Shown piece after piece: positions 4,501 through 44,788 of a stretch of DNA of 64,000 bases. The notes under the pieces were generated by a model. It was not told the DNA's origin, ran no database searches, and saw only the letters and a list, made by a program, of their open reading frames with translations. Where the stretch lies: positions 53,621,959-53,685,958 of the forward strand of contig NC_088715.1 in assembly GCF_963576615.1 (NCBI RefSeq), written 5' to 3'. Position 1 is the stretch's first letter, and the number at the start of each line of letters is the position of its first letter. The DNA is from Watersipora subatra. Taxonomy: Eukaryota; Bryozoa; Gymnolaemata; Cheilostomatida; Watersiporidae. The position numbers were made by a program, and so were the translations under genes.

Positions 4501-7500
4501 AAATCTGTGCTCGTATTACACGATCTTAAATAGCTAATTGATGTTCTTCAAACTTAAATGAATGTAAAAATGTTTGCATTCTGTAATTGTTTAAATCTTA
4601 CTCACAGTGGTCAAAAAGATCTTTGCATCCACATTTCTTGAGAACATGTGCAACTTTGCACTCACTCTTGCATGCTGAATAGGAGTAAAATGGGTAATAG
4701 TGTAAAGGGTTTGGTAGGATATCAGCATCAAAACAGTCTGCTTGCCCACCATCAGCGTATGGAGGAACTCTTTTTATCTGAAAATTACAAAATGAATAAA
4801 AGTTAAAGTCATGTTTTTAGTACAAGCATTCGATTAGCTCAAGTATAAATACACTTTATGTATCATATATACCGCCATCCAAATACAATCTCTATAGAGG
4901 CTGGCGTATTGCAATATCGTAACAAAGTTGCAGTTAATTTGATAGAAATTCTCAAAACTTAAAATAATCTTGTGGATTAAAACAGTTTATAGTAAGCTAA
5001 TTTTGAGTTATTTGTTTAAGGGTCTTACTAAAATAACTAAATTAACCAACCACTTAAGACCTTATTGGCAGCTCTTGTCCAACAGTAAGAATTTTATTAC
5101 AATTTTACATCTTATTTTTTAATTAGGACTAGCTTAAAGTTAATACTTGTATATCTGACTATAAGTTGTCACCTCTTTTCGCTGCACAATGAATTGAGTC
5201 AGCTCCCCGGGTTGAACTCCGTAGCTGACCTCAGAAAGTAATGGTACTTGGTTAACATCGTGGACAGCTACCTATTTGAAAGAGTTTTTTAGCAAAGGAA
5301 CCAAATGCCAAACCAAAGGTTTGAATGTCTAACAGTGAATTTTGCCACGATAAATTTTCAAAATTGTTTTCAACTCACTGAAAACCCTTCTGTATGAGAG
5401 GTTGGTCCAATAAAGTATTCATCTACTAAGAGTAGTATATAGAGAGCAGATCTACACACAAAAGTGACGGATCCAGCGGGGGGATAGAAAAAGGGGGTTG
5501 TGAATTAAATTGGCTAGGGGTGTAGATTGAATCGTGTGGAGTTGAATGAGATGTTGGGGTTTGGGGGGAAATTGTGGTGTAGAGTAGGGGGTTGAATTCG
5601 AGGGGTTACGGATCCGCTCCTGGCGTAATCGGCGGATTATCTGTGGATGAGTCATCGGATTAGCGGGGGATGAGTCATCCGATTGAACGCGGATTATCGC
5701 GGGATTAGTCGGGGAAATCGTCGCGGATTAGTCGGGCGAATCGTCGCCGATTATCGGTGGAATAGTGGGGGTGAATATCTGGGACATCGAGGGCTGGATG
5801 GTTTTCCGGAGTGGATCTCGCGGATTATCGAGGAGAGCGAGAGATTACCTAGCGGATGAGTGAGGGGGTTAATATCTGGGACACCGAGGGGTTGATTTTC
5901 CGGAGATTGTTATATATTTGGTTGAATGAGAGATAAGTTTTTATTATAAAATATAAACTATAAATGTTACAAAAAATTCAAAATCATTCTGTCATTCGTT
6001 TTAAAAAGGAAAGTTTTGGAATACATCTTTCTTGAATTTCATTCAATCCCAATTTTCTTCTTCTTCTTTCATTGTCGAATGAGAATGAACTGTCTACAAT
6101 CAAAACATACATTATTTTTAGTGAGATATAGTAAAAGTAAGACATACAATCAGATTAGATCATTCATTCAAACTAAAAATCAAATATAATGTAATACTTA
6201 CTGAAGAAGAAGAAGATCCATCCTTTTTCTGAATGGAATCTTCCTGTTGAGATACGGGAGCCTGCAATTGCAATGATTACAGTCAGGATGGATTACTATA
6301 ACCTTGCTGAGATAGTAGACTCTACATTCACAATGGACTCCAACTTAAATTGTAAATTTCAATTGTATTAGTCATCGAATCATAGAATGATATGCAAGAT
6401 GTAGTGCAAACAGAATAGGATATGCAACCAGCTAGAGTAGGACATACAGACAATAAGAAAAACAAATATGTTACATCACATAGTCAGACTAGGACACACA
6501 GACAGAGGAGGATATTCAGTTAAAATAAAGAAATAAATATAATGTACTACTTACTGAAGATTCAAATTCATAAAGCCTTCTCCGAAAAGGACTATATTTA
6601 GTTCGGTGATGCCCAGGATCCTACAATTGCATTGATTATAGTCAGAGTAGAACATGCAGACAAATTAAAACACAGTCAGGTCTTACTTTGAATTTCAATT
6701 CCAACTCCTTTTGTTTTAAAGTGGAGTTATACAAAATATTAATTACTGTTTTCACAGATTGATACTCATTTTAACATTCCTACATACCAATTGGAGTGAA
6801 TTTTGTTGAATGTATTTGATCTTTAGTTACATGTTTTATCATTATACAACGATATTAGACGAAATAAATATAATGTAATACTTACTTTTAAAGTCAATGT
6901 AACATCGAAGTTACGAAAGAACTCCTCTCTTTGCTGCTGCATGACCAATGATTTCTACAATAATTTCCAAATTACTTTGTATAATTTAATTGTTTCATTT
7001 AAGCAAACCCTATAATTCGAAATATATTTAATATGTAGTTTATATTCTCGAGTTTCCTTTAACCCTTTCACTGCCGAGCATGTACAAATTTGGGTATTTG
7101 CCAAGTACCAGCCATTTTACCGAAAATTGCCGATATTGCTTCATGGTATGTAAACAGTATTTTTTCCAATTTCAATCTCTATTCAGAACAATTTTATTAC
7201 ATATTTTAATTTGCTAACATTGTAGCCATCATTGCTATGCAAAAATTCAACGAATCTATACTTTGTGCGATGATAAAGCTGTGTGATGCTATGATCGATG
7301 CGAAGCTAAAACGATCTTCCGTGTTTCTTACTCTCACAAAATTATTACTTTCACTACTCTCAGAGACAGTGCTGCTGCTTTAACTATCTGTATAATCACG
7401 AAAATCTGAATCTGAAATGGCTATAATGCCATCAACATTACTAATTACCTGTTTTCTGACTCGCGCGCGGTAATTAATGAACTCACACAAAAAATGTTCG

Positions 7501-10500
7501 TTATAAAATTAGAAGTTCTCTAACAAAAGTTTGAAATTGATTCGTTACTTTAGGTTAATTTTATAAACAAATCTTCAGACAACACTGTCAATTTCATAAA
7601 AGTCTGAAAGACCGTGGGTTATGCTGTCAACGAATAATAAAATGAGGTAACTACGCAATGGCTGGGAAAGTCGCATTAATGCGTCTACGGCAGTGAAAAG
7701 GTTAATCAAAAATATAATTTAGTAAAATATTATAATGTAATACTTACTTTCTTTTGAAGCTTGATCTTGTTTCGAAAAGCCTTCTGTTTTTCAGGATCTA
7801 CCTCTCTACCCCAAGGGCAGTAGCCCCATATCTCCACACACGTGTCGATGCAATTTGTCTGAGTTAGGAGTCTATCCACGTTTTTGTCTCGAGCACACAT
7901 TGTAAACTATTATAAATAAAATGAGATGAAAAACTTATTCTTTCTCGTTGCTTATATAGTAAGTAGAAGCAATGTTATGGTTCATTAAATTTGTGTAATT
8001 TATGTTCACGAAATTGTAAAATCAGCTAAACAGTTTTCGCGAAATTCACTTTCGCGAAATTCAATTTCGCGAAAGTTGACTATATAATATATATGTGTAA
8101 TTTCGCGAAATCCAATTTCGCGAAATCCAATTTCGCGAAATTCACTTTCGCGAAATTCACTTTCGCGAAAGTTGACTATATAATATATATAATGTGTAAT
8201 TTCGCGAAATTCACTTTCGCGAAACTCAATTTCGCGAAAATCTGTTTACTATTTTCGCTTCATTAATTCCTTTGGACACACCCATCATTCTTCAATTCAC
8301 TATATAAGCGTTGCATAATCTGATGGAATATTCTGCCTCATTAACCATCTCTTGATACCTACTTATATTTGAGAATTTGGGTCGATCGAGTGTTGATACC
8401 ATAAGGCTTGTATGCTTCAGCTAGAATTCTGTTAGCCGGCTACTCGCAATTAAGTTCGTTGAGTGTCGCTGTTTTCAGGGGCTGTTGTGTGGACAAGCGC
8501 CTTGGCATTCGACTTGATTGTTTTCCTAGGTTTACCTATGGAATTCTCCTGTTTGGTTTGGCTTAACCATTCCATAACAGTTTCTCGACCAGTAAATAGA
8601 TGAAGATGATGAACTAGTAAAGGGGCATACATGGATTAATATGTGGATTATTTTGAGGATAGCTCCAACTCAGTGTGAGTATATCAATATATAAAACTTA
8701 TATCAAAAAGTAAATAATATTCGGTTGTATTTGTTACCAACTTTATTTCGATATAAAGTATATATGTATATTCAATTGTAAAATATAGAAAAAAAAAATT
8801 TATGTCAGATCTTCTAGTAATTTAACAATTTGGGAAGTTCCTTGAATATGTACATTGTCAACACCTTCATTTTCTTCGTTATTAAGACTTTTACTAATTT
8901 TTTTTTTCATTCCAATCATATCTATCTAGTATAGTTTTTCGAACTACATGATCTCGTGTATCTGTTTCAGAAATTTTTAGCATAACTGTTAGAAAATCTT
9001 CTATTGAACATCCTCTGCTCCAAAATATTGCAAAGAGAAGACAGTAATCTCCACATGTTGTTGAAAGAATTGTTTCCAATGAAACAACCTTGTTGCCAAT
9101 GACGTGCAACTAAATTTTTGGTTCAACAATTCCATTTCTAATTATTTTTTCAAAAACGGTAAAACCAGACCGTTATCGTCATGACAATAAGAAACACACC
9201 GAGTTTGTTCAACGCAAAGAAAAGCGTCAGGAATTTTGTGAGAGTAAGAGTTGCTAAACAATTTTACACCTATCTTGTGGAGAATTTTGTTCTGAATAAG
9301 ATACATTTAAAAGTAAAACGATATATGTTTTCATTTTTTGAGATATTGCTTAAATACTAACGGTATATCGGATTTTTTAGAAAATCCGTTTGAATTAACT
9401 TGGGCAGAATAATCGTTTGGTCAACAATTAACGTGGTAGCGAAAGAGTTAATATACAAGTGAGCAGTGATTATAAATGTATATATAATAATAAAATGTGA
9501 GTAAGATAAAAGCTACTGAAGATACAATAAACAAAGCTAGGATTGTGCTAGTCCATGTTGATATACAAGGGAGCAGTGATTATAAATATATATATATAAT
9601 AAATCGTGAGTAAGATAAAAGCTACTGAAGATACAATAATCAAAGCAGAATTGTACTAGTCTATGTTGATGTACAAGTGGGCAATGATTATAAATGTATA
9701 TATAATAATAAAATGAGAGTAAGATAAAAGCTACTGAAGATACAATAAACAAAGCTAGGACTGTACTAGTCCATGTTAATATACAAGTGAGCAGTGATTA
9801 TAAATATATATATAATAATAAAATGAGAGTGAGTAATGTGAGTATATATAATAATACATTTTATTATTATATATAATTATAATCACTGCTCACTTGTAAT
9901 CACTGCTCACATGGACTAGCACAGTCCTAGCTTTGTTTATTGTATCTTCAGTAGCTTTTATCTTACTCACATTTTATTATTATATATACATTTATAATCA
10001 TTGCTCACTTGTACACCAACATAGACTAGTACAATCCTAGTTTTTGTTTATTGTATCTTCAGTAGCTTTTATCTTACTCACATTTTATTATTATATATAT
10101 TTATAATCACTGCTCCCTTGTATATCATCATGGACTAGTACAATCCTAGCTTTGATTGTATCTTCAGTAGCTTTTATCTTACTCACATTTTATTATTATA
10201 TATACATTTATAATCATTGCTCACTTGTATATCAGCATGGCCTAGCACAATCCTAGTTTTGCTTATTGTATCTTTAGTAGATTTTATCTTACTCACATTT
10301 TATTATTATATATACATTTATAATCACTGCTCACTTGTATATTAACATGGCCTAGCACAATCCTAACTTTGTTTATTGTATCTTCAGTAGCTTTTATCTT
10401 ACTCACATTTTATTATATATACATTTAAAATCATTGCTCACTTGTACATCAACAGGGTCTAGCACAATCCTAGCTTTGTTTTATTGTATCTTCAGTATCT

Positions 10501-13500
10501 TTTATCTTACTCACGTTTTATTATTATATATTCATTTATATTCGCTGCTCACTTGTATATTAACATAGACTAGCACAATCCTAGCTCTGTTTATTGTATC
10601 TTCAGTAACTTTTATCTTACTCACATTTTATTATTATATATACATTTATAATCACTGCTCACTTGTATATTAACACGGACTAGCACAATCCTAGCTTTGT
10701 TTATTCTATCTTGAGTAGCTTTTATCTTACTCACATTTTATTATTATATATACATTTATAATCACTGCTCACTTGTACATTAACATGGACTAGCACAACC
10801 CTAGCTTTTATCATACTCACATTTTATTATTATATATACATTTATAATCATTGCTCACTTGTATATCAACATGGCCTAGCACAATCCTAGTTTTGCTTAT
10901 TGTATCTTTAGTAGTTTTTATCTTACTCACATTTTAATATTATATATACATTTATAATCACTGCTCACTTGTATATCAACATGGACTAGCACAATCCTAG
11001 CTTTGTTTATTGTATCTTCAGTAGCTTTTATCAATTATTCTAAAGTGCTGTAAAAGATCATCAGGAGTGTTAATAAAGTACTGAGAATAAGTATGTGTAC
11101 AATTATTATAAAGTGCTGTAAGAGAACATCAGGAGTATTAATAAAGTACAGAGAATAAGTATATGTACAATTATTATAAAGTGCTGTAAGAGATCATCAA
11201 GGGTGTTAATAAAGTACAGAGAATAAGTATATGTACAATTATTATAAAGTGCTGTCAGAGATCATCAGGATTGTTAATAAAGTACAGAGAATAAGTATAT
11301 GTACAATTATTATAAAGTGTAGTAAGAGATCATCAGGAGTGTTATTAAAGTACAGATAATAAGTATATGTACAATTATTATAAAGTTCTGTAAGAGTTCA
11401 TCAAGAGTGTTAATAAAGTACAGAGAATAAGTATATGTACAATTATTATAAAGTGCTGTAAGAGATCATCAAGAGTGTTAATAAAGTACTGAGAATAAGT
11501 ATATCTACAATTATTATAAAGTGCTGTAAGAGATCATCAGGTGTGGTAAAAAAGTACAGATAATAAGTATGTGTACAATTATTATAAAGTGTAGTAAAAG
11601 ACCATCAAGAGTGTTAATAAAATACAGAGAATAAGTATATGTACAATTATTATAAAGTGCTGTAAGAGATCATCAAGAGTGTTAATAAAGTACTGAGAAT
11701 AAGTATATGTACAATTATTATAAAGTGCTGTAAGAGATCATCAGGTGTGGTAAAAAAGTACAGATAATAAGTATGTGTACAATTATTATAAAGTGTAGTA
11801 AAAGACCATCAAGAGTGTTAATAAAATACAGAGAATAAGTATGTGTACAATTATTATAAAGTGTAGTAAGAGATCATCAAGAGTGTTAATAAAGTACAGA
11901 GAATAAGTATGTGTACAATTATTCTAAAGTGCTGTAAAAGATCATCAGGAGTGTTAATAAAGTACTGAGAATAAGTATGTGTACAATTATTATAAAGTGT
12001 TGTAAGAGAACATCAGGAGTATTAATAAAGTACAGAGAATAAGTATATGTACAATTATTATAAAGTGCTGTAAGAGATCATCAAAAGTGTTAATAAAGTA
12101 CAGAGAATAAGTATATGTACAATTATTATAAAGTGCTGTCAGAGATCATCAGGATTGTTAATAAAGTACAGAGAATAAGTATATGTACAATTATTATAAA
12201 GTGTAGTAAGAGATCATCAGGAGTGTTATTAAAGTACAGAGAATAAGTATATGTACAATTATTATAAAGTTCTGTAAGAGTTCATCAAGAGTGTTAATAA
12301 AGTACAGATATTAAGTATATGTACAATTATTATAAAGTGCTGTAAGAGATCATCAAGAGTGTTAATAAAGTACAGAGAATAAGTATATGTACAATTATTA
12401 TAAAGTGTTGTAAGAGATCATCAGGTGTGTTAACAAAGTACAGATAATAAGTATATGTACAATTATTATAAAGTGCTGTAAGAGTTCATCAAGAGTGTTA
12501 ATAAAGTACAGATATTAAGTATATGTACAATTATTATAAAGTGCTGTAAGAGATCATTAGGGGTGTTAATAAAGTACAGAGAATAAGTATATGTACAATT
12601 ATTATAAAGTGCTGTAAGAGATCATCAGGTGTGTTAACAAAGTACAGATAATAAGTATATGTACAATTATTATAAAGTGCTGTAAGAGATCATCAGGAGT
12701 GTTAATAAAGTACAGAGAATAAGTATATGTACAATTATTCTAAATTGCTGTATGAGATCATCAAGAGTGTTAATAAAGTACAGAGAATAAGTATGTGTAC
12801 AATTATTCTAAATTGCTGTATGAGATCATCAGGAGTGTTAATAAAGTACTGAGAATAAGTATATGTACAATTATTATAAAGTGCTGTAAGAGATCATCAG
12901 GTGTGTTAATAAAGTACAGAGAATAAGTATATGTACAATTATTATAGAGTGCTGTAAGAGATCATCAGGAGTGTTAATAAAGTACTGAGAATAAGTATAT
13001 GTACAATTATTATAAAGTGCTGTAAGAGAACATCAAGAGTGTTATTAAAGTACTGAGAATAAGTATATGTACAATTATTATAAAGTGCTGTAAGAGATCA
13101 TAAAGAGTGTTAATAAAGTACAGAGAATAAGTATATGTACAATTACTATAAAGTGCTGTAAGAGATCATCAGGTGTGTTAACAAAGTACAGATAATAAGT
13201 ATATGTACAATTATTATAAAGTGCTGTAAAAGTTCATCAAGAGTGTTAATAAAGTACAGATATTAAGTATATGTACAATTATTATAAAGTGCTGTAAGAG
13301 ATCATTAGGGGTGTTAATAAAGTACTGAGAATAAGTAGATGTACAATTATTATAAAGTGTAGTAAGAGATGATCAGGAGTGTTAATAAAGTACAGAGAAT
13401 AAGTATATGTACAATTATTATAGAGTGCTGTAAGAGATCATCAGGAGTGTTAATAAAGTACCGAGAATAAGTATATGTACAATTATTATAAAGTGCTGTA

Positions 13501-16500
13501 AGAGAACATCAAGAGTGTTAATAAAGTACTCAGAATAAGTATATGTACAATTATTATAAAGTGCTGTAAGAGATCATCAGGAGTGTTAATAAAGTACAGA
13601 GAATAAGTATATGTACAATTACTATAAAGTGCTGTAAGAGATCATCAAGAGTGTTAATAAAGTACTGAGAATAAGTATATGTACAATTATTATAAAGTGC
13701 TGTAAGAGATCATCAGGTGTGGTAAAAAAGTACAGAGAATAAGTATGTGTACAATTATTCTAAAGTGTAGTAAAAGTCCATCAAGAGTGTTAATAAAATA
13801 CAGAGAATAAGTATGTGTACAATTATTATAAAGTGTAGTAAGAGATCATCAAGAGTGTTAATAAAGTACAGAGAATAAGTATGTGTACAATTATTCTAAT
13901 GTGCTGTAAAAGATCATCAGGAGTGTTAATAAAGTACTGAGAATAAGTATGTGTACAATTATTATAAAGTGCTGTAAGAGATCATCAGGAGTATTAATAA
14001 AGTACAGATAATAAGTATATGTACAATTATTATAAAGTGCTGTAAAAGATCATCAAGAGTGTTAATAAAGTACAGAGAATAAGTATATGTACAATTATTA
14101 TAAAGTGCTGTAAAAGTTCATCAAGAGTGTTAATAAAGTACAGATATTAAGTATATGTACAATTATTATAAAGTGCTGTAAGAGATCATCAAGAGTGTTA
14201 ATAAAGTACAGAGAATAAGTATATGTACAATTATTATAAAGTGCTGTAAGAGATCATTAGGGGTGTTAATAAAGTACAGAGAATAAGTATATGTACATTT
14301 ATTATAAAGTGCTGTAAGAGATCACCAGGTGTGTTAACAAAGTACAGATAATAAGTATGTGTACAATTATTATAAAGTGTAGTAAGAGATCATCAAGAGT
14401 GTTAATAAAGTACAGAGAATAAGTATGTGTACAATTATTATAAAGTGCTGTAAGAGATCACCAGGTGTGTTAACAAAGTACAGATAATAAGTATGTGTAC
14501 AATTATTATAAAGTGTAGTAAGAGATCATCAGGTGTGTTAATAAAGTACTGAGAATAAGTATATGTACAATTATTATAAAGTGCTGTAAGAGATCATCAG
14601 GTGTGTTAATAAAGTACAGAGAATAAGTATATGTATAATTATTATAAAGTGCTGTAAGAGATCATTAGGAGTGTTAATAAAGTACTGAGAATAAGTATTT
14701 GTACAATTATTATAAAGTGTAGTAAGAGATCATCAGGTGTGTTAATAAAGTACTGAGAATAAGTATATGTACAATTATTATAAAGTGCTGTAAGAGATCA
14801 TCAGGTGTGTTAATAAAGTACAGAGAATAAGTATATGTATAATTATTATAAAGTGCTGTAAGAGATCATTAGGAGTGTTAATAAAGTACTGAGCATAAGT
14901 ATTTGTACAATTATTATAAAGTGCTGTAAGAGATCATCAGGTGTGTTAATAAAGTACAGAGAATAAGTATATGTACAATTATTATAAAGTACTGATAAAG
15001 ATTGTACATGAACATTTTCTTATGTATATATTCAATGTTTCATTTATACTATATTATCTTTATTGTGTCCTATCTACTTGAATATTTTCATATATTTCAA
15101 GTTAAACATAAACTATTTTATTTTTATTGAAACAAAATGATGATGGAAATAATGAATAATACATATAAATATATCTTTTGAAGTGAATAATTTTGTAATA
15201 AAACTGATCTTTCATTCAACATATTAATTTCTCCAACAAATTTCAATCTTACATACAAAAAAAATACAAAAAAAACCGAAAATAAATTCCTTAAAATTCT
15301 TAACCATTCAAGAGCTTCAACATTACAAAATCATCAAATCTTCAAAAAATAACTTTGTACATAAACACTTTCTCATATATATTCAATGTTTCAAATATAT
15401 AACAATCTCCGGAAAATCAACCCCTCGGTGTCCCAGATATTAACCCCCTCACTCATCCGCTAGGTAATCTCTCGCTCTCCTCGATAATCCGCGAGATCCA
15501 CTCCGGAAAACCATCCAGCCCTCGATGTCCCAGATATTCACCCCCACTATTCCACCGATAATCGGCGACGATTCGCCCGACTAATCCGCGACGATTCCCC
15601 CGACTAATCCCGCGATAATCCGCGTTCAATCGGATGACTCATCCCCCGCTAATCCGATGACTCATCCACAGATAATCCGCCGATTACGCCAGGAGCGGAT
15701 CCGTAACCCCTCGAATTCAACCCCCTACTCTACACCACAATTTCCCCCCAAACCCCAACATCTCATTCAACTCCACACGATTCAATCTACACCCCTAGCC
15801 AATTTAATTCACAACCCCCTTTTTCTATCCCCCCGCTGGATCCGTCACTTTTGTGTGTAGATCTGCTCTCTATATACTACTACTAAGGCATTCATCACAA
15901 CTGTAAGTCCTCCACTAATACCAGGGGTGTGAGTGTAGAAACTTCCGTTCTTGTTAAACTGATGACAGAAACCTAAAATTGAGGCCTAAATTGTTTTCTA
16001 TAGTTAAAAGAACATTTGGGTGGTATGAAGTTAAACCAAAAAAGCTTTTTCTACTTAAACTCTATTTTATTTACAAATTATTATTAATAAACATTCAATA
16101 GATTCTTAAAACAATTGTCTCAGAATTTTATGTAAGCATTACAGCTAACTTGATTGCATTCATCAGACTTTCTCTAAAACTTAAATATATATACAATAAC
16201 TAAACACATACTTTGATGAAACATTGGCTATTGCATTTTAGAGCATGCCATCATCTAAACAGGTGAACTCAACTTTAAAAAAAACTGATTTAAAACGCCA
16301 ACTTGAAAATATAAAAGTAAAGATTTGAGATTAAGCATAAAGTTTTTGGTGATATACTATTCAACGGCAGATTATTCATGCCGTTGAATTATTTTTATAG
16401 TATTTCACCATTAAACTAAAACATTTAAACTAAAAGATCAAAAAGCTTTTTTTGTAAATTAAACTCAGTTTAAAACTTACCACATTGGCTACAGGGTTAA

Positions 16501-19500: not shown

Positions 19501-22500
19501 CAAAATGCTTCTTGTGACACTTGCCAAAAAAAGTATAAATTGAAAACAGAAACCAGGAATTATTGGGTAAGTTGGACAAAAATGTATTTAAAGTGCTGTG
19601 TAGATAATCTAATAGAGTTGCTAAAAAGTTGGAATAATGAATGGAAGGTTGCAGTAACATAAGGTTTGCAAAAGCTTTTGAAGTCATGCCTGGTAATAAT
19701 CAAAGCACCACACAAGAGCAGGAGCAATGTTATGCTGCCCATAAAATGGTAAGGCTGGAAAAATATGTTGATATCTTACTTGCCAGGTGGTGGAGGAAGG
19801 TCTCTTCTTAAATATAGATCCATCAGAACATCTTCGACTGCTTTCCGAGTTTTATTGTCCACATAGGGTGAAAAAACTGCTGATGACTTCCAGTTGTTTT
19901 TGTTGCAAATCGTTACAGTTGGGAACTAAAAAAGTTAGTGTTTGAGACTTAATTGACAGAATTGTTGTGGGATATTCTCTCATGTTTGCTCTTAGTCAAA
20001 TAGAAAAATTTGCGGACTTCAATTTTTTGCAAATACTATAAACTTGTTTGAATTGTTTAAAAGAGAAGGTACTAAGCTGTAAGTAGAATATTCTAAACTG
20101 AAATGATACCAGAAACTTTTAAAAATATATTTACCAATGGATTAATCAAAATGCATACCTATTTTATGTTGCACTGACAATAGACTTTGACAATAACCTC
20201 TTCTGATAATAACTTTAACTACGTGTAACTTTAATAACTGTGAACATAACCAACAAATACATCTTTATTTTTTCTATTGATCTTTAGAAATCAATAATAA
20301 GCATCCATCACAAAGCATTCATTTTTATGTTTGTGTTTTTAGCACATTTTCTGTGACAGTTACACATATATTCAATATGACATCATACATGTACATGTGT
20401 TCCAGCTATAACTGTCATAATTACAAAGTAGTCAAAATCCAGCTAGTTTTAGTGCTAACCTTGAACTTGATAACATATGTAGCCCTGATTTAGTCACTGA
20501 AAAATCCTCAGCTATTATCCTTGTGAAATTTCAGAGTGATCTAATGCAACAGTTTTAACAATATTCAAATAACGCTAATCTTATTTTTTTAAAACTTTGT
20601 CAGATATATTGATATGGAACTTACAAGTTTGATGTGTCTTCACGAGTAATAAAACCTATTCAGGTAAGTTTTAGAAAAATGATCTTGTTTTTTTTATTTT
20701 GCTGACAATCATTATAATTATATTTTAACTTCAACTACCAAACTTGGAATGTGTTTAGTCACAGTCTGGTTGAAGTTATGATAAATAAGAAGTAGTTTTT
20801 GGTGGTCATAGAAATAGATTTGTTTGATAGCAGAACAATTTGTGACCTGTTTGTTGATCTAGTATTCGTTTTTATATCATTTGTGGTTGCCCATCGCAGT
20901 TATTAAAATTGATTTGCAATAGCTAATTATGCAAACACGCTACAAAAGGATTATAAAATTAGTTAATAGTTTAAAATATGCGCAAAGTTAATGACAGATA
21001 AATTGGTAAAGTATTAGGCATAAGTTGGTCACAAATGAGCCTGCACAATAATTTATTTGGCTAAAAAAATTGATAACCAAACATTTAAAATTTCTAAAAA
21101 GCTATTTTTCGCTGCTCGTACAACTAAGCACAGCATCAGATTACTATTAATTGTGGCAGTTTGGGTGTCATTTACTTTTTTAACATGATTTTTTTATTAC
21201 AGGTAAAATTATACCTTCCTTAAGAAATACAGTGCATACCTGCATGCACAGTGAGTTTGAAATGCTAAAACATAAAGGGCCGGCAGGGATACAGTTTTTG
21301 ATGTACAGTTTTTTGGGTAATTACGAGTAGAATGTTTGTGAGTCAACAAGATTGTAGAAAAACAAAATAACCAGGTAAAATACTTGCTTTACAATAAATT
21401 ATAACTTAGTTTGACGTAATTGCTTTGATAGTGGTTTTCAATATAGTTCAAAGCTGTCCCGAGTTCATTGGTTAAACTTTAGTGGAAGTATCAAATTAAT
21501 AGTTTATTTAACTCAAATGTTTAAACAAAAGCAAATGGTTTAAAAATATTTTTACAACATTTTAGATTAAATCCAAAACGTTTGAGTCAATTAATATAAT
21601 AATGCTGAAATTTGGGTAAATATAGCTTAGTCTGCAATGCTTAACATAAACAATACCTGCATTTCTTTAGAGTTTTTAATTTTGATCTTTGTGCTGACAA
21701 TCTGCTTGCTGTAATCTCTGAGAAAAAGATATGCTGCCCAGGTGAAGTATCCTACTCCTATGAGAATCATCACGCTCCAGAATATTCTATAAATAACATC
21801 AGTACAGCTCAATTCAAAAATAGTAAAGCCTGACTATGCAGACATTTCTATGCGGGTCACTGTGGTAATTATTATGCTTGGCCTTCAATATACCAAATCA
21901 GTCTCCATGAAAGAAAAACTCAATTTATATAGCTAGGTCTAAAAGACTGTGGCAGCAATGCAACATAATTTTTCCAGTTTTCTATAGAACTGGCCTTTGT
22001 TACAGAGCAAGTTAAATTAGTGGTTCTGCGGCCAATTGTATTTTGTTCAGAAATATAATGAAAGTCAAGTACTCTATCAAGTTGTATCAAAATTCAGCAT
22101 GCCAAACAAGATTCTCACTTCATCAACCAAACCTTTCATAATTGCACCTTTAAGATCAACGTATACAACTTTTTTAGTTTTATTTGAATGCATCTGTTTT
22201 TTTCTATCACTTGTCTATATACTCTATGCATTAATATGTCAGCACTTTTGTAATAAAAAATTTGTGTTTTTCAAAATTTTTTAATTGAGTCTGTATTAAT
22301 AAACACCCATTTGTCACTGTTTTGGCAGCACTAATTATGTGGGTGTGAGCGCATGCGCAAGTGAGTTCATGTGAGCGTGTGCTCGTGTGTGTATGCAAGT
22401 ATGTTTGTGTGTGACAATGAACATGTGTGCATGTGCGCGTGTGCGCGTGTGCGCGTGTGCGCGTGTGCGCGTGTGCGCGTGTGCGCGTGTATGCGTGTGC

Positions 22501-24343
22501 GTGTGTGCATGTGTGCGTGTGTGCGTGTGTGTGAGTGCGTGCATGCGTGTGTGCGTGTGTGTGTGTGTTCGTGTGTGCTTGTGAGTGTGTGTGGGAGTGC
22601 ATGGGTGTGCGTGTGTACAAGTGCGTGTGGGAGCAGGTGCGAGTGTGCGCAAGTGAGCGTGTGTGCAAGTGTGTTTGTGTGCACGCGCGTATGCACGTGC
22701 GAGTGTGTGTGCGCAGGTGTGCTTGTGTGCATGTGCTTGTGTGTGTATGAGAATCTCTTTATCTGCAACTGTGAATATGTGTGTGTGTGAGTGTGTGAGC
22801 TTGTGTGCGTATGTGCCTATGTGTGAGCATGCGTGCAAGTGTGTGTGTGCACATTTGTCTGTGTGTTTATGTTTGCTTGTGAATGTGAGTGCAAGTGTGC
22901 GTGTGTGCACATGTGTGAGTGTGCGCATGTTCACGGTTGCGTGTGTGTGAGTGTGAGCAAGTGTGCAAGTGTGTTTGTCTGCATGTTTGCGTATGCACGT
23001 GTGGGCATGTGTGCGCAGGTGTGCTTGTGTGTATTTGTGTGTGCGTGTGCATGTGCGCATGTGTTTGTGTATCTATGCAAGTGCGTTTTTGTGTGACTTT
23101 GAGTATGAGTGCATGTGTAGGTGTGGGTATGTGTGTGTTCATGTGTGCTTGTAAGTGTATGTGCAAGGGCGTGTGCGCGCATGTGTGCATCTGTGTGTGT
23201 GAGTGTGTGCAAGTGTGAGCGTATGTGCAAGTGTGTTTGTGTGCGTGTGTGCGTTAGCACAAGTGTGTGCGTTTTTGGGTATGTGTGTGTCCGCTAGTTC
23301 ACGTAAATGCTCTGCATCTTCATATTTTGAGCAATTTAATTGAATCTTTACACGCATCTGCTCCCTGCTTCTCAGCACTTTTCTCAAAAATCCATATTGC
23401 TACTAAGCGTCTTGCATTTTATTTTTTGAAAATGAATAAAAAATTCAGGCATCGCTTAGCTCAGTAGTAGTCATAAATATTACTGATTTATGGATAGAAT
23501 CAATTACAAGAAAAATATTATTAAATTTCTACTAATAGTGACCACTTATATCAACGAAATAAAAAACTCACAAAATTTATTATTCATTTTTCAATGATGG
23601 AGGCTTTTCCTTCATATCCTTCATTTTCCTTAACAGCAAGTCCATGAATTAAACAACGCCAAAGTATGCCTTTAAAAATGCACGGAAATATATACTTTCT
23701 TTGCTAGATTCCGGCTAAACCAATGTCTTTGTAGTGCAGGCTACTTTGTGTTTTTGACTTGGCAAAGAGATCAATAAAAAAAAAGATTTTACATGTTTTA
23801 TTTACGTTAGCTGAGATTTACATTATAGGAGGCATCCTATAGTTTGTTGATGCTATTCCCATGTGTTAATGCTTGGGTTTTTGCATGTCTCAGGTCTGTC
23901 AGTGGTTTTCAAAAATTTAAACAATATTGCTCAATAAAGTTTCTAGTTCTTTTCTAAATATTTGCTTCTCTTTCCAAAAACTCTCATTTATGTTTTGCAT
24001 AAATGAAGATAAAGTATTGATATAAATAAGGGAACATTTTTTCATTTATGTACAGTGCAATAAAGGGAAATGTCAGCAGGTATTAAAAAATTGGCTACCA
24101 GGAAAGAAAGTTAATCAAAAACCAATGTTTATGCACTTTCACAGCAAAAACTTCAAAGCACAGTTTTTTCAGTTTTCTTTGGTAAGAAAAGCTTTCTAAA
24201 ATCAGCTAAAAAGCTAAAAACTATTCTCACCGTCTTTTTGGAGATGATTCTTTGGTAGTATATTGGACTCCATGCAGAGTCGTTTTTTCAGTGAATGTTA
24301 TCCAGCTACTTGCGTTGTGTCCATCAATTTTTTCACTCGCCAT
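1339..24343 (-). CDS. DEG/ENaC-family sodium channel subunit, 11 exons, interrupted in exon 5
   Basis: Probable subunit of a trimeric, amiloride-sensitive-type cation channel in the plasma membrane. Eleven GT-AG exons join in phase into 484 residues plus stop, a usual length for the family. Visible in order: a HG gating motif near residue 24 (TTLHG), TM1 at about 41-60, FPTVTICN at 82, a DEYFIGPTS palm segment near 223, cysteine-rich CKSEC..CGC and CNC..C blocks, then IGG..G..IGAS and TM2 in the last exon, where GAS is the selectivity-filter G-x-S. The start is the first ATG of exon 1, followed by a typical short cytosolic N terminus; a TTTTAG just upstream could end a 5'UTR intron. The Polinton-like element lies within exon 5 and introduces a stop about 12 codons in, so this allele should be null unless the element is spliced out. 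The ligand cannot be told from sequence; FMRFamide-gated and acid-sensing types are both possible. Confidence 0.9.
1964..2074 (-). CDS. channel exon 10 (pre-TM2)
   Basis: Encodes NNLAMLHVVYGEMSYELLEE, the strand leading to TM2. The donor is GTAAGT, phase 1. Confidence 0.85.
2718..2855 (-). CDS. channel exon 9 (CNC motif)
   Basis: Encodes HECNCRATCKEVQYTARLSS, corresponding to the family's C.CPp.C.e..Y....S block. Phase 1 at both ends. Confidence 0.85.
3445..3507 (-). CDS. channel exon 8
   Basis: A 63-bp exon encoding SRSCFIQEMLECSAPAA. Phase 1 at both ends. Acceptor TTTCAG, donor GTATGT. Confidence 0.8.
4606..4777 (-). CDS. channel exon 7 (cysteine-rich)
   Basis: Encodes ADCFDAD, then SYSACKSECKVAHVLKKCGC, the conserved Y..saC..eC......CgC pattern. 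The donor is GTGAGT, phase 1. Confidence 0.9.
5173..5271 (-). CDS. channel exon 6
   Basis: 99 bp in phase 0. Encodes VAVHDVNQVPLLSEVSYGV, matching the family's VLIHDQDEVP..SE..G.GV..G segment. The paralogous exon at 56,872 is also 99 bp. Confidence 0.85.
5379..5424 (-). CDS. channel exon 5, downstream part
   Basis: Encodes DEYFIGPTSHTEGFS, the DEY..GPT palm segment of DEG/ENaC channels, then a GTGAGT donor. It is now 10.45 kb away from the first part of its exon. Confidence 0.85.
5425..5430. repeat. target-site duplication, left copy
   Basis: ACTAAG immediately outside the left TIR. Removing one copy plus the element restores an uninterrupted 137-bp channel exon in frame, which proves the boundary. 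Confidence 0.9.
5431..5920 (+). repeat. left terminal inverted repeat
   Basis: 490 bp starting AGTAGTATATAGAGAGCAG. Its reverse complement is the right end of the element, with one mismatch noticed (near 5,727). It is far more GC-rich than its surroundings and contains reiterated GGATTATCG/GGATTAGTCG modules. Homology ends at ATATATTTG. Confidence 0.9.
5940..5945 (-). terminator. polyadenylation signal AATAAA
   Basis: AATAAA on the minus strand about 100 bp beyond the stop of the five-exon gene and about 20 bp before the TIR. Its position suits 3'-end formation inside the element. Confidence 0.45.
6043..7900 (-). CDS. five-exon gene of unknown function carried by the element
   Basis: Not recognised. 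Exons 7748-7900, 6886-6954, 6555-6620, 6202-6261 and 6043-6093 have lengths 153, 69, 66, 60 and 51 bp, all multiples of three, with GTAAGT donors and CTACAA/TTGTAG or TTGCAG acceptors, so every intron is phase 0. The product is 132 residues: a cysteine-containing N part (MCARDKNVDR, CIDTCVEIWGYCPWG), then charged low-complexity peptides (MQQQREEFF, RRRLYEF, a five-serine run, KEEEENWD) and TGA. No signal peptide or membrane helix. A TATA box lies about 50 bp upstream of the ATG and AATAAA about 100 bp after the stop, just inside the left TIR. Donor-side intron sequences resemble each other, suggesting exon-intron unit duplication. A MITE occupies intron 1. It could be an accessory Polinton gene or a captured host gene. 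Confidence 0.65.
7073..7701 (-). mobile_element. piggyBac-type MITE, copy 1
   Basis: 629 bp flanked by TTAA on both sides. The ends are CCCTTTCACTGCCG and its imperfect inverse. TTAA duplication with CCC/CCT ends is the piggyBac pattern. It sits in intron 1 of the element-borne gene, so it arrived after the element was built. Its interior, read on the minus strand, retains an acidic SDSD-type stretch like the N terminus of piggyBac transposases. Opposite in orientation to the copies at 45.5 and 53.9 kb. Confidence 0.7.
7951..7960 (-). promoter_or_regulatory. TATA box of the five-exon gene
   Basis: ACTATATAAG on the minus strand followed by CAACG, about 50 bp upstream of the ATG at 7,900. Nearly the same string, pointing the other way, occurs at 8,299. 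Confidence 0.5.
8035..8240. promoter_or_regulatory. array of 11 TTTCGCGAAA palindromes
   Basis: Eleven perfect TTTCGCGAAA palindromes about 15-20 bp apart, joined by TTCAC, TCCAA or TTCAA. Two GTTGACTATATAATATATA spacers divide them into three groups. The array is centred between two outward-facing TATA boxes. The core resembles E2F-like and CGCG-palindrome factor sites, but the binding protein is not known. Confidence 0.6.
8299..8310 (+). promoter_or_regulatory. outward-facing second TATA box
   Basis: ACTATATAAGCG on the plus strand, the mirror partner of 7,951-7,960 across the palindrome array. It should drive a rightward transcript, but I find no convincing reading frame after it. The ATG at 8,323 is too close to the TATA box, and the next, at 8,412, opens only 7 codons. 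Confidence 0.4.
8450..8632 (-). CDS. possible small reading frame, unknown
   Basis: A 60-codon frame starting MYAPLLVHHLHLF and ending TQRT. It has plausible amino-acid composition but no recognised domain. It lies between the protease relic and the promoter array on the same strand as both coding features, so it may be a remnant of another Polinton gene. It may also be chance. Confidence 0.25.
   Translation of the reverse strand: MYAPLLVHHLHLFTGRETVMEWLSQTKQENSIGKPRKTIKSNAKALVHTTAPENSDTQRT
8894..9109 (-). pseudogene. relic of adenain-like cysteine protease
   Basis: The frame contains TTCGDYCLLFA followed by SRGCS, matching the C-terminal Cys-nucleophile block (CG.YC..F....rG.s) of the Polinton/adenovirus-type maturation protease. 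In Polintons this enzyme processes virion-like proteins. The upstream half with the catalytic His is not readable: there is an in-frame stop just before this block and other stops above it. An A-run near 8,905 ends this frame, and a neighbouring frame continues to about 8,800, so there is also a probable frameshift. No ATG. Non-functional. Confidence 0.55.
9449..9850 (-). repeat. 108-bp tandem array, inverted part
   Basis: Between three and four units of about 108 bp, each with a GAGCAGTGATTATAAAT block, an AT stretch and AGATAAAAGCTACTGAAGA. They run opposite to the units on the right. Confidence 0.8.
9851..11031 (+). repeat. 108-bp tandem array, direct part
   Basis: About eleven units with CACTGCTCACTTGTATAT, CTAGCACAATCCTAG and TCTTCAGTAGCTTTTATC blocks. 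The array turns over at about 9,850 in an AT-rich dyad and joins the 68-bp satellite within a TTTTATC unit at its right end. Confidence 0.8.
11032..14996 (+). repeat. 68-bp satellite, about 58 copies
   Basis: Near-perfect 68-bp periodicity (ACAATTATTATAAAGTGCTG.., GATCATCAGGAGTG.., AATAAAGTAC..). The variant CAATTATTCTAA with TGTAAAAGATC recurs at 11,032 and 11,916, exactly 884 bp or 13 units apart, followed by the same order of variants: a higher-order repeat. No reading frame and no interspersed unique spacers, so not CRISPR. Confidence 0.9.
14997..15391. other. AT-rich subterminal region of the element
   Basis: No gene seen. A block beginning GTACATGAACATTTTCTTATG and ending ATTCAATGTTTCA occurs at both ends of this stretch (about 15,004 and 15,357). 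Confidence 0.5.
15392..15881 (-). repeat. right terminal inverted repeat
   Basis: Mirror of 5,431-5,920. It ends CTCTCTATATACTACT just before the second ACTAAG copy. Both TIRs contain the same 67-codon open frame, which reflects their identity and not a demonstrated gene. Confidence 0.9.
15882..15887. repeat. target-site duplication, right copy
   Basis: ACTAAG immediately outside the right TIR. Counted here as part of channel exon 5. Confidence 0.9.
15882..15972 (-). CDS. channel exon 5, upstream part
   Basis: Encodes GFCHQFN through GGLTVVMNAL and ends at the target-site duplication of the inserted element. With the downstream part at 5,379-5,424 it forms a 137-bp exon, the same length as the uninterrupted paralogous exon at 56,042-56,178. 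Confidence 0.85.
17504..17685 (-). CDS. channel exon 4 (finger region)
   Basis: 182 bp. Encodes YNWSDPIYLGLSKDT through LNETFISCQVLGVTKPCSEV. It holds two cysteines and N-glycosylation sequons (NIS, NET). The matching pseudogene exon at 55,763 is 4 bp shorter and so frameshifted. Confidence 0.85.
17983..18128. repeat. TTTGGCC-rich degenerate short repeat
   Basis: Degenerate repeats of GGTCTTTTGGCC-like 8-10-bp units inside intron 3 of the channel gene. Confidence 0.6.
19780..19925 (-). CDS. channel exon 3 (FPTVTICN)
   Basis: Starts in phase 0 with FPTVTICNKNNW, the family signature just after TM1, and ends in a proline run before a GTAAG donor in phase 2. Confidence 0.9.
21657..21786 (-). 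CDS. channel exon 2 (TM1)
   Basis: 130 bp. Encodes FWSVMILIGVGYFTWAAYLF, the first membrane helix, then LRDYSKQ. The acceptor is TTTATAG and the donor GTATTG. The pseudogene exon at 48,995 has the same length and phase. Confidence 0.9.
22335..23300. repeat. TG/CG-rich minisatellite
   Basis: Nearly 1 kb of alternating purine-pyrimidine (GTGTGCGCGTGTG, GTGTGCAAGTGTG units) in intron 1 of the channel gene. All six frames stay open over parts of it because of composition, so its Cys/Val/Thr/His-rich frames are not genes. Such tracts can adopt Z-DNA. Confidence 0.9.
24231..24343 (-). CDS. channel exon 1 (N terminus, HG motif)
   Basis: Begins at ATG and encodes MASEKIDGHN through ESSPKR plus two bases. 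It contains TTLHG, the conserved His-Gly gating motif found before TM1 in DEG/ENaC channels. The donor is GTGAGA. Intron phase 2 matches exon 2. Confidence 0.85.
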
Positions 24344-39670: not shown

Positions 39671-42600
39671 TCAACGCAAAACTTGTGGATAGACAACATT
39701 TTTTGTTTTTCTGTCGGGTGTATGAACATACAGTTTTCGGCTTGTGCCTACTCTTGAGCAGGCAACATACAGCTGGCCATGGCTAAAGCAAGGGGACAGT
39801 AAGTCGATACCAGCTACTTTGAGGGATTGACCTTGCGACTTGTTGATTGTCATAGCAAAGCAGACTCTGATGGGGAACTGAATCCTTTTAAATTCAAATG
39901 GTAGATCGGTTGGAATAATTGGGATCCTTGGAATAAAAACGTATTTTCCTCTACCAGATGCTGAAATGATTTTGGCCTGAATTACGTGCAAAAACATTTG
40001 CGTAACAATTAGCCGAGTGCCATTACATAACTTTGGAGGATTGAGGTTGCAAAGAAGCATGATCGCTGTTCCTATCTTTAGCTGCAATTTATGAGCAGGA
40101 AGTCCGGGCAAGTCCAGTGAATTTAAGAATTCCACAGGATATTCTACATTAGCGTCATCAGTCAACGATGTATCAACAGAAGTGAAGGTTTTTGAATTGC
40201 CAGGTAGTTGGGCTAAAAGCCGTGAGTTTATGGCAGCAGCTGCATCATTCCGGGGGCAAAGAATAGCTCGCTCAGATAACCAATCAACATCTTGGAACCT
40301 CTGTCGCAGATTTGGGTAAACGTTCTCCTGAAGTTGCTCGGTTGAATCCACAAAAGTGCTGTAGCCATCAAGTGACACCAAACCATCCTCAGCACTGACT
40401 GGCAAACGCCCTTCACCAATACACAGTAGTCCAGCAGCAAAATGTGCACTTGTTTCGTCACCAAGAATAGCGGCACGCTTGTTTCGTGTCAAATGCAGCT
40501 GCACAACAGACGGCCACAAAAATGATGATTTGATACATGCATTTATCTCATCAGCAGGTGTGCCTCTTTGTATGACAGGCAATTTTTGGCAAAAATCTCC
40601 AGAAAGTAAAAGAGTTATCCCACCGAAAAGTCTATTATTTTCACGCAAGTCCTTTAGGGTAAGGTTTAGAGCTTCAAATGCGAGCTTGTGCGACATTGTG
40701 CACTCATCCCACACAATAAGAACGCATCGTTGCAGAAGTTGGGCAGTTCCGCTGTTCTTTTTGATATTGCACACAGGATTCTCAGTTCTGGCCAAATTAA
40801 GAGGCAGTTTCAGTGCTGAATGCGCAGTGCGGCCACCAGGGAGTAAGGTAGCTGCAATGCCAGATGAAGCTACAGCTAAAGCAATTTTTCCAGACTCTCG
40901 TACTTTCGCCAATATAAGATTAGTGACAAAGGTTTTGCCGGTCCCACTTGGTGCGTGAAGAAACACCATACCGCCACTGTTTTGTTCAATTTTCTCAAAA
41001 ACTGTGTTATATGCAGCTCTTTGCTCTTCCAGCAGCAGTGGTTCATTGGTTTCAACATGGCGACGGAGCTCTTCACGGTCATATGCTGTTTCGCGTAATA
41101 TTTCCCTGCAAACAACAGGTTGCTCCACCCTAACAGGCCTGGGAATTCCAAAAACTGAGAGGTTGTGGTTTGTGACCTCAAGCACTTGGTCCTCAATAAA
41201 TATAAGAGCAATATTGAACATTCTATCTGTGAACTGCAGTTGTTGATCCTGAAGCAATTGTCGCTCATGAAACAAGATGTCTTCAGCCAAATGTTCCTTA
41301 AACTCTTGCCACAGCTGAAGAGGGTGAGAAAGCTGGCAGGTGCTCAACATAATAGCAAACAACTTGCGCAGTTGGGCAGGTGACCGTACAGTTGCAGCTT
41401 CTTCCAAGGCCTCCCTCCACTGTGTATCATCTTCCAATAGCCCCAAACGTCTGCATGCTTCATGGAAAGTGGCACAGACATGATCTTCAACAGTTCTCAA
41501 ATGCTGAAAGGACATTCGGCTGACTACGTGGTGCAGCATGATTCGAAGAAAGAAACATTCACGATTGTTGGGGTGAACAGTGTATACCCGTGCTAGGGCA
41601 TCAGTTTGATATATGCCAGAATGATCACGCACAGCAGCTCCATGAACTCATCTCTTCCAGCATTTTGTGGATGTGTCAAAGGTGTAATAGGCTGGCAATT
41701 GGCAGTAGAGAAGCGTCTTGGCAAAATCATCAAGTGTACAAAGCTTGAAAAAGGCGGTAAGGGTAGTGTCACGTGGTTCTTGAAGTTGTTGCTGAAGATT
41801 TGCTTCAGTGAAATACACTCTCTGGCCATTCTCAAGATGGACACTCAGATGCTGGACAGTCGGGTGTCGTGCATGAATAGGGAGACTGAAGATGCGCCAC
41901 ATTGCTTCACTTGCACTGATGTACCGGCCACTCTCATAGCGAGCTACTTCATCTACCTGTGCTCCATCTCTTTCCAAGCCGAACACTGCTTGATCACTAC
42001 CCTTATTGACATATTTGCAAATGTATTTGATAAATTTCACTGAGTTGCAAAATTCGACATTGATGTGTGCATTGAATACTTTGGACAGCAAAGGGAAGTA
42101 AGGCACTATCCTTCTATTGTCCAAAGTGATGTCGTAGGCCTCTCCAACAGCTCGCAATGTGTGTTGTTTGGTGAAACCTCCATCATCAGCGGAACGACGA
42201 TGATACAATGGATACCCATTTATGCCAGTAACTGTGTCTTTAATGAGAGCCTTAAGGTACTTCTTGGTACATGTGCCATCCTTCATGCAGGGTGAACCGG
42301 GGTTTAGCTGGCCACATGGACCATGTACCATGTGCTCGGTGACAATTTCGAACAGCTCAGGGTCTTCCACTCGATTTGGTATTTCTGCAGAAATGACACA
42401 ATCAACCTGTGCTAGCCTGATGCGATTGCATAACCAAATTAGAATGTGTGCATGAGGGAGTCCGCGTTTTTGCCATTCAATGGTGTACATATGGCATCGC
42501 ACAGCGCCAAATATTGCACCAGTGGTGATGTAATCCATTAGTTGCTTTAGTTTTAGGTGAAACACTCTTGCAACCACATCATGTTTGTCATAGCTTTGCT

Positions 42601-44788
42601 GACCAGGCAGCAATTCATTGGAAATCTCATCCCATTTGCTGTTGCAGGTAAATGTGATGAAGAGGTCTGGTCTGCCGTAATGTCGCACATATGTCATGGC
42701 ATCCTGTGTACGCTCATGCATGTAGCGCGGGTCACCAGTAAAAGATGAAGGTAAAATCACCATGTTACCTAGTTGGTTTGCATTGCGATCATCAGCCACT
42801 GCATCACGCAGGTGGATGTAGTCATCAGCTCTTAGCCGTGTCTGATGGTGGCGGATAAAGCTAAGTCTTTCAGTTTCAATTTTAGCGTACATATCAACTG
42901 CAAACTGCAAAAACAGCTTTCGGCACCTGTGAATGTAGTTAAAGCTACCATCATGAACCATCAGTCTGCTAGCATAAAAATCCATAGCAGAAACCTTTCG
43001 TGTACCTGGCTCTCCTGTGCGAATGTCAGTCTGTCACAGCTGAAAGTTGTAGCCATCGTCACCTCGCCAGAAAATGAGTGGATACTGCAGGGCGTCATAT
43101 GCTCTGTGCGCCTCAGATATCCTCTGCAGTTCATTGCTACGTAACTGCAGAATAATATCCCGCCTTTCAAACTGCTGTCCAACTATTTGAATGGCAACTT
43201 CATCTATGACAGGAGCATTGAATCTCCTTTCATGCTCTTCAACAGGGTGTTTGTCAGCATGAATGACAATTCGCAAGTCATCCGTGTTTTCAGGCAGCCT
43301 CTCCCGAGCAGTTTTGAAATCACGCACATATTTATTTTGCTCGTGTAGAACATCCTGCAGCTCACGTATTACGTTTAATCGCACTCCTTCAACAATACCA
43401 CGCCGACGTTCTGCCTCTGCCTGCTGGTCACCCATGAAATAGATTTGCAGGAACTGTGGTTGCTCACCCGGTATCGGAAGCAAGGATCATCCAATCAGAT
43501 GCTAGACTTGACCGTGAACCTTGAAATTCGGGTTAAATCCAAGCTCATCAATGGTTTTAGCTCCAAATGATGTCATTTGAAAACAGCTGTTATATTTTCG
43601 TATATTCCCCAAAAAATGTTCAGAATCAGGATTTGCGCCTTGGAATAGGTGAGTCAATACAGGTAGAATATCCTCAGAGAGTGGTCGTAGGCGAACTTTC
43701 CCATTGTTGCAACAAATGCCTGGCCTCTCGTCTTTCCAACTTAAGGCATTACATCTGGAACATTTTTTAGACATTCGTCCCATAAAAAATTTCTGATGGG
43801 CCCTATACTGCGTTGCAGGATTGTAGTCAAGTGCAAAGTTTTCTGCCCATGCCCGGCGCCTGGTAGGTTGTGGCGGCCAAGCAGCTGCTGTAGTTAGTGT
43901 ATCTTGCCGTGGGAGTCGCTGCTGGGTCGGCTCAACCGTCTCTGCACTTCTAGCAGCTGCAGCATTTATTCTAGCATGCTCTCGATGTACCTGTGTTTGT
44001 TCAGCGGTTTCTGCTCTTCTAGCAGCTACTATTCTGTTTCATTGTAGGCGTAGCTGTGTTTACTCTGCAGTTTCTGCACTTCTAGCAGATGCAGTAGCTA
44101 TTATGTCTCGTTGTAGGCGTAGCTGTGTTTGCTCTGCAGTTTCTGCACTTCTAGCAGATGCAGTAGCTATCCTGTCTCGTTGTAGGCGTAGCTGTGTTTA
44201 CTCTGCAGTTTCTGCACTTCTAGCAGATGCAGTAGCTATTCTGTCTTGTTGTAGGCGTAGCTGTGTTTGCTCTGCAGTTTCTGCACTTCTAGCAGATGCA
44301 GTAGCTATTCTTTCTCGTTGTAGGCGTAGCTGTGTTTGCTCTGCAGTTTCTGCACTTCTAGCAGATGCAGTAGCTATTCTGTCTCATTGTAGGCGTAGCT
44401 GTGTTTGCTCTGCAGTTTCTGCACTTCTAGCAGATGCAGTAGCTATTCTGTCTCGTTGTAGGCGTAGCTGTGTTTGCTCTGCAGTTTCTGCACTTCTAGC
44501 AGATGCAGTAGCTATTCTGTCTCGTTGTAGGCGTAGCTGTGTTTGCTCTGCAGTTTCTGCACTTCTAGCAGATGCAGTAGCTATTCTGTCTCATTGTAGG
44601 CGTAGCTGTGTTTGCTCTGCAGTTTCTGCACTTCTAGCAGATGCAGTAGCTATTCTGTCTCGTTGTAGGCGTAGCTGTGTTTGCTCTGCAGTTTCTGCTC
44701 GTCTAGCTGCTGCTTTGCAAACTCGGTCTCTTTCTCTACGGAAATCAATCTGTTCTTGCAATTGAGCGGTAGGCTTTTTGGGAGACAT
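39671..44788 (-). pseudogene. Helitron Rep-helicase (RepHel) with nonsense codons
   Basis: A rolling-circle replication initiator fused to a Pif1-type SF1 helicase, the transposase of Helitrons. One frame runs from ATG 44,788 to the stop at 39,671 (1,706 codons) with no frameshift, broken by about nine stops (44,591; 44,384; 44,198; 44,060; 44,039; 43,502; about 43,485; 43,034; 41,648). In order: a 23-residue repeat region; a CSRCNALSW..CC zinc segment at 43.7 kb; a Helitron-like N domain at 43.0-43.5 kb; a Rep domain with the HUH motif GLPHAHILIW near 42.45 kb and the tyrosine pair YICKYVNKG near 42.0 kb; then an intact 653-codon helicase with Walker A APSGTGKT, WDEC, LLSGDFCQ and a final TINKSQGQSL...LYVACSR. 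Most stops are CGA-to-TGA or CAA-to-TAA changes. Confidence 0.9.
44045..44714 (-). repeat. 69-bp coding repeats in RepHel
   Basis: About ten units of 69 bp, each encoding 23 residues (RLQRDRIATASARSAETAEQ..). Helitron N termini often carry such Arg/Glu/Ala-rich repeats. Five units have a stop. The opposite strand is open over 220 codons and is only a shadow. Confidence 0.9.

Follow-up and report, generated by a model that had tools for sequence, protein, structure and literature searches.

The window analyzed here, a stretch of 64 kb on contig C8 (53621959-53685958) of the bryozoan Watersipora subatra, carries a five-exon gene on the minus strand, enclosed by the terminal inverted repeats (TIRs) of a mobile element of about 10.5 kb. 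The in-frame exons of 153, 69, 66, 60, and 51 bp specify 132 codons followed by a TGA stop, and the parts of the gene are as follows.

7748..7900, minus strand: exon 1 (153 b, residues 1-51, with the four cysteines C2, C17, C21, and C28)
6955..7747, minus strand: intron 1 (793 b), housing a presumed piggyBac-like miniature inverted-repeat transposable element (MITE)
6886..6954, minus strand: exon 2 (69 b, residues 52-74), missing in the annotated isoform X2 (P0003)
6621..6885, minus strand: intron 2 (265 b), its first 25 b 96% and its last 25 b 88% identical to those of intron 3
6555..6620, minus strand: exon 3 (66 b, residues 75-96)
6262..6554, minus strand: intron 3 (293 b)
6202..6261, minus strand: exon 4 (60 b, residues 97-116)
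6094..6201, minus strand: intron 4 (108 b), its first 75 b 75% identical to intron 3
6043..6093, minus strand: exon 5 (51 b including the stop codon TGA)
5940..5945, minus strand: AATAAA poly(A) signal, 20 b inside the left TIR

GTAAGT, the donor at all four introns, has no other occurrence on the minus strand in 6000-8400, the acceptors are TAG, TAG, CAG, and TAG, and every intron is in phase 0. An earlier note on this DNA had described five exons of these lengths with GTAAGT donors, AG acceptors, 132 residues, and a stop, all of which are present, the strand being minus; the TATA box and AATAAA that it placed inside the TIRs lie at 7959-7951 and 5945-5940, respectively. Its judgment that such a structure is unlikely by chance is borne out by 300 dinucleotide shuffles of 6000-7960 (donor GTAAG[TA], acceptor [TC]AG, introns of 60-900 b, and exons of at least 30 b), none of which gave a spliced open reading frame (ORF) with at least four introns, against 132 codons in the real sequence. 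A chance ORF is thus ruled out by the shuffles together with the annotated relatives described below, and the five-exon gene is a genuine spliced protein gene.

These relatives number only three, all annotated as "uncharacterized protein" of W. subatra, from a search of 5.8 billion proteins with an exact-word prefilter; a profile search, which likewise needs shared exact 5-residue words, returned the identical three. P0001 (132 aa) differs from the window product by one residue (99% identity), P0002 (130 aa, "isoform X1") is 85% identical by BLASTP, with 99% of the query covered, and in P0003 (107 aa, "isoform X2") the frame is identical except that precisely the 23 residues of exon 2 are absent. 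A frame-keeping skip is therefore present in public annotation, and on that annotation at least two proteins are made by splicing, one with and one without exon 2. P0003 equals the exon-2-skipped product of five genomic copies (L020, L021, L025, L026, and L027), and of these L025 is on a contig whose length agrees with that given for P0003. The gene had been called undescribed, which holds for its function but not for its sequence, already in NCBI and UniRef under the name "uncharacterized protein". No family had been recognized, and in agreement with this the product has no match in Pfam, PHROG, or PDB and the profile search led to no known family, so that membership in a known protein family is rejected. 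Among the viral contigs searched, no relative was confirmed.

The product has a mass of 15.6 kDa, an isoelectric point of 8.3, and no hydrophobic segment, its largest 19-residue mean hydropathy being 0.42 (from residue 11). By this hydropathy measure, no stretch like a signal peptide was found. An AlphaFold2 model of P0001, built from three sequences with a mean predicted local distance difference test score of 56.7, places helices at residues 10-25 and 36-74 and leaves the tail disordered. The product is a small, basic, and probably intracellular protein; on this low-confidence model its N-terminal part, which bears the cysteines, would be helical and its tail disordered.

The gene region matches at least 40 places on ten contigs (C1-C10), a lower bound given that 40 of 4495 candidates were scored. 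The complete frame is kept in 33 of these 40 copies; L031 and L032, whose matches end before exon 1, were counted as not intact and excluded from the splice counts. In the splice-site tally, which covers 37 copies (L031, L032, and L044 being excluded from the 40), all four GTAAGT donors are kept in 36, with one GCAAGT in L023, and all four AG acceptors in 37. No scored intact copy is identical to P0001 or P0002, and it follows that further copies probably exist. P0002 is itself a mosaic that joins residue K16 of one group to the tail of another.

The element that carries the gene in the window is delimited by the following features.

5425..5430: target-site duplication ACTAAG, left copy
5431..5920, plus strand: left TIR (490 b), beginning AGTAGTATATAG
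15392..15881, minus strand: right TIR (490 b), 100% complementary to the left TIR
15882..15887: target-site duplication ACTAAG, right copy

Its ends thus read AGTAGT//ACTACT, and duplications of 6 b are found in all four elements for which both ends are in hand (ACTAAG in the window, CATTTG, TATCAA, and GCTAAG). The TIR directly adjoins the gene in 18 of the 40 copies, with 18 distinct left flanks and the AGTAGT start in every one of them. In four further copies, for which about 10 kb was examined on each side, the window-type TIR is present at both ends in L029 and L021, at the right end in L038, and at neither end, within that reach, in L037. TIRs of 490 b are also found in L050/L051 and L052/L053, with one outer end eroded in L052. 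The claim that the gene is carried by the element agrees with the TIR lying beside it in 18 of 40 copies and farther out in three of the four others.

ORFs reaching 120 codons are absent from 5431-15881. Pfam gave nothing above cut-off for eight frames from 8405-9357, for the second gene of the family (ORF2, below), or for two frames of L055, and neither the ORF list nor Pfam on these selected frames revealed a gene for a transposase, integrase, polymerase, ATPase, or capsid protein. ORF2 is convergent with the five-exon gene and stands between it and the element end, with 192 codons from its first ATG (L048:9206-9784, plus strand). It falls within the fetched 850 b in 19 of the 40 copies and is intact in 18 of these 19; it has no match in Pfam, PDB, or PHROG and was not found in the window element. 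A third open frame of 322 codons (L055:4942-5910, plus strand), which lies past a second palindrome array and close to the right end of one element, has no Pfam or PDB match. Kinship of ORF2 and ORF3, which look alike by eye, is without BLASTP support (E 44).

Upstream of the five-exon gene, the sequence takes the form of a compact promoter region.

7951..7959, minus strand: TATA box CTATATAAG of the five-exon gene
8035..8239, no strand: promoter array of 11 perfect TTTCGCGAAA palindromes
8300..8308, plus strand: diverging TATA box CTATATAAG

All 11 occurrences of TTTCGCGAAA in the window fall in 8000-8260, between the two diverging CTATATAAG boxes, and the count per copy ranges from at least 0 to at least 32 within the fetched stretch (38 copies, L031 and L032 excluded). 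Rfam returned eight weak matches, none of which reached its gathering score; seven of them fall on the palindrome array and the eighth at 6030-6089. A literature search for TTTCGCGAAA gave nothing relevant by title among the matches listed. For its transcription control, we infer that the gene would be driven by one side of a two-way TATA promoter dense in TTTCGCGAAA palindromes. These palindromes resemble E2F half-sites, and it is therefore plausible that expression falls in S phase, when replication would profit such an element.

Further features of the element, and of the window around it, complete the description of the locus.

7063..7701, no strand: stretch of 639 b in intron 1 with inverted ends, flanked by TTAA at either side
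8897..9109, minus strand: open frame of 71 codons with a CGDYC segment (91 codons open in L049 and 115 in L055)
9447..11032, no strand: 110-b tandem repeats in both orientations, common to L049 and L055
11032..15002, no strand: 68-b tandem repeat of 58 units, common to L051 and L053

The stretch at 7063..7701 is presumably a piggyBac-like MITE, as judged by its ends. It is present in 25 of the 40 gene copies (two of these matches stop inside it), and the other 15 have the empty site; relatives of 78.7% and 67.3% identity lie elsewhere in the window, at 53939-54573 and 45502-45963, respectively. The frame with the CGDYC segment has no match in Pfam, PHROG, or PDB. The segment is reminiscent of the Maverick protease, a likeness confirmed by no search, and presumably resembles the C-terminal part of adenain/Ulp1-type proteases, for which searches were negative or irrelevant. 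The satellite arrays vary between copies, with the 110-b array in L049/L055 and the 68-b array in L051/L053. The element sits inside an amiloride-sensitive sodium channel-like gene (1342-21833, minus strand), on the same strand, between its exon 4777-4606 and exons farther upstream; Pfam ASC is matched by open frames near 21833-21630 joined with 19925-19779, 4777-4606, and 1557-1342, with 2883-2689 below cut-off. Elsewhere in the window, 39671-43486 (minus strand) holds long ORFs spread over several frames, which resemble a Helitron helicase and replication protein, and 22424-23254 consists of long GT-rich tandem repeats with 8- to 26-b units, several frames of which are open as His/Thr-rich repeats.

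With gene structure, copy number, ends, target duplications, conserved splice sites, and the annotated skipped isoform established, we consider it reasonably likely that the five-exon gene is an accessory gene, and possibly a passenger, of a non-autonomous W. subatra element family whose ends are of the Maverick type, and not a gene of the host locus. The carrier is an element family with Maverick-type ends, and it is not classed as an autonomous Maverick because no polymerase, integrase, ATPase, or capsid gene was found. As its ends are of the Maverick/Polinton type and no polymerase, integrase, or capsid gene is visible, the element is probably mobilized in trans, with a full Maverick supplying the enzymes that copy and insert it, and the product of the five-exon gene would serve it in a helper role. 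It could be speculated further, and more tentatively, that the family is a Maverick satellite lineage, which would have dropped the replication and capsid set and live off autonomous relatives with a small gene set of its own (the spliced, exon-skipping gene and partner genes), its two-way E2F-like promoter timing expression to host DNA replication.

Several observations on the ends and on sequence change weigh against an accessory role in such a family. The left end of L037 (L048 from 8623) and of L038 (L054 from 8598) is a different sequence, of which only the first 30 b are shared with the window TIR, at 93%, and within 10 kb L048/L049 yielded no right end; L048 matches L054 at 99%, and the opposite end of the L054/L055 element is a window-type TIR. 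Between the window copy and L020, 3 synonymous and 11 nonsynonymous changes give equal nonsynonymous and synonymous divergence (dN = dS = 0.037). From the MAFFT comparison, in which exon 1 was misaligned in copies without the MITE, only figures for the window against L020 were taken. The ratio of nonsynonymous to synonymous polymorphism (pN/pS) is 0.85 and 1.44 within two groups of 9 and 13 copies, respectively, and the 30 nonsynonymous and 7 synonymous variants among the 33 intact copies are neutral against a site ratio of about 3.6. Frames are broken in 5 of the 38 full-length copies, by a frameshift in L018, L022, L042, and L045 and by a stop in L028. Such frame breaks without purifying selection, together with missing spliced transcripts, were what the earlier note had named as speaking against the gene; what we find is dN/dS of about 1 between subfamilies and these five broken frames, which goes half of that way.

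Other figures from the same comparisons are less one-sided. In the window-type group of 11 copies, pN/pS is 0.13, a value based on very few changes (means of 0.36 synonymous and 0.18 nonsynonymous per pair), and the variants of ORF2 are 25 nonsynonymous and 10 synonymous against a site ratio of 3.7. Window and L020 differ at 14/393 exon and 23/819 intron positions. Exon 1 is unchanged (0/153), but the neighboring MITE also shows only 5/639 changes, so that the 5' half is probably just younger, through exchange between subfamilies. Overall, the sampled copies give no clear sign of purifying selection on the five-exon gene, with dN/dS of about 1 between the two subfamilies, and with near-neutral dN/dS and variant ratios such selection is not demonstrated.

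Because the sampled copies lack clear purifying selection, the gene is probably a passenger in many of them. A strong rival extends this to every copy, holding that a once useful host or viral gene was caught in the element and copied along without function, and we give it a substantial minority chance. The divergence and variant ratios above speak for it, as do the broken frames and the failure of the exact-word protein searches to find a relative outside the species. Set against it are the 33 of 40 intact frames and the fact that exon indels between the window and L020 number just two, each of 3 b, as well as donors kept in 36 of 37 copies, acceptors in 37 of 37, and ORF2 in 18 of 19, all of which could also reflect youth. 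It is improbable that the element transduplicated a host gene family whose functional progenitor stands elsewhere in the bryozoan genome, as in Pack-type capture. This would account for a spliced structure of a kind absent from the intact vertebrate Mavericks as they are described (PMC8097293), but the gene is served by a two-way promoter of its own within the element, with a second element gene beside it in 19 of 40 copies, and protein searches, which reach proteins sharing exact 5-residue words, gave only close relatives.

The small exons invite two further readings, each of which we consider unlikely. In the first, the gene would resemble micro-exon genes in generating diversity, phase-0 exon skipping yielding many variants. 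Every exon length is divisible by three, every intron is in phase 0, and one skipped isoform is annotated, and between the window and L020, exons 2, 3, and 5 differ at 14/183 positions versus 22/666 in introns 2-4 (Fisher P 0.02); however, this choice of exons was made after the fact, and exons 2-5 taken together do not differ significantly from the introns (P 0.12). The many in-frame variants that had been predicted come down to the single one seen, P0003. Micro-exon genes are characterized in the accounts cited by a signal peptide and small symmetrical exons (PMC4350168), with 10-20 exons of 6-81 b, mostly 15 b (PMC10526429). The five-exon gene is like those of schistosomes in its symmetric phase-0 exons and frame-keeping skip, and unlike them, so far as these accounts go, in having no signal peptide and fewer and larger exons (five, of 51-153 b) and in residing on a repeated mobile element (PMC10526429, PMC4350168). 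The likeness does not amount to membership, which is rejected for want of a signal peptide and on account of a 153-b exon and a total of only five exons.

The other reading, which would be compatible with the rest, traces the similar introns to an introner-like element that entered what had been a shorter gene. Sequence is shared by all four introns over the first 17-25 b and, between introns 2 and 3, over the last 25 b as well, but at the 3' end introns 1 and 4 are poor matches to the others, and no further copy of the 20-b start (up to 4 mismatches) exists in the window except for one weak match on the plus strand. Exons 3 and 4, moreover, have similar flanks upstream and downstream, the pattern expected if an exon had been duplicated together with its surroundings. 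With splice signals left out, these flanks match at 48/59 positions and the exons at 37/60 (Fisher P 0.025); exon identity is no better than in shuffled sequences (mean 0.60), yet the score gives z = 3.6. For exons 2 and 4, flanks match at 40/54 versus 30/60 for the exons (P 0.012), and for exons 2 and 3 the upstream flanks are unmatched (11/26) and the contrast between flank and exon is absent (P 0.44). BLAST detected no similarity between exons of the gene. The simplest account of exons 3 and 4 would be an exon-with-flanks duplication followed by exon divergence. Introners are described as groups of similar introns alike nearly up to both splice boundaries (PMC9860276). Introns 2 and 3 show such a pattern here, but the intron similarity is known within one gene and exon duplication accounts for exons 3 and 4 too.

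With at least 40 copies, Maverick-type ends, a spliced gene, and no enzymes, such a family would lend itself naturally to testing whether virus-like transposons parasitize one another in animals, and some "uncharacterized proteins" of a sequenced invertebrate are accounted for as likely mobile-element genes. If the satellite-lineage reading were true, this would be a bryozoan element parasitic on autonomous Mavericks with a self-evolved gene set. A phrase search of 5.39 million open papers gave no match for "non-autonomous" Polinton/Maverick, none of the matches listed for Polinton/Maverick with bryozoan has "bryozoan", and among the matches listed for spliced Maverick genes only one paper (PMC8097293) deals with Mavericks.

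Maverick/Polinton ends read (AGT)2//(ACT)2 or (AG)3//(CT)3. For vertebrate Mavericks, (AGT)2//(ACT)2 ends are reported together with perfect target duplications of 6 b and TIRs of 402 b on average, the intact elements carrying intronless ORFs; the lengths given for Mavericks are 12.7-24.6 kb (PMC8097293). The window element is like Mavericks/Polintons in its AGTAGT//ACTACT ends, 6-b target duplications, and TIRs of a few hundred bases. It is unlike the Mavericks described there in its length of about 10.5 kb, its large satellite arrays, and the lack of any polymerase, integrase, ATPase, or capsid gene found, and its five-exon gene is spliced, unlike the intronless ORFs of the intact vertebrate elements (PMC8097293). 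Nematode Mavericks, in turn, are described in a meeting report as encoding integrase, polymerase, and capsid and as carrying the cargo genes wosp and krma (PMC10680173). That cargo is reported to come from nematode gene families, whereas no relative of the five-exon gene was found outside one species and its carrier looks non-autonomous; as with wosp and krma, however, a Maverick-class element here bears extra genes unrelated to replication (PMC10680173).

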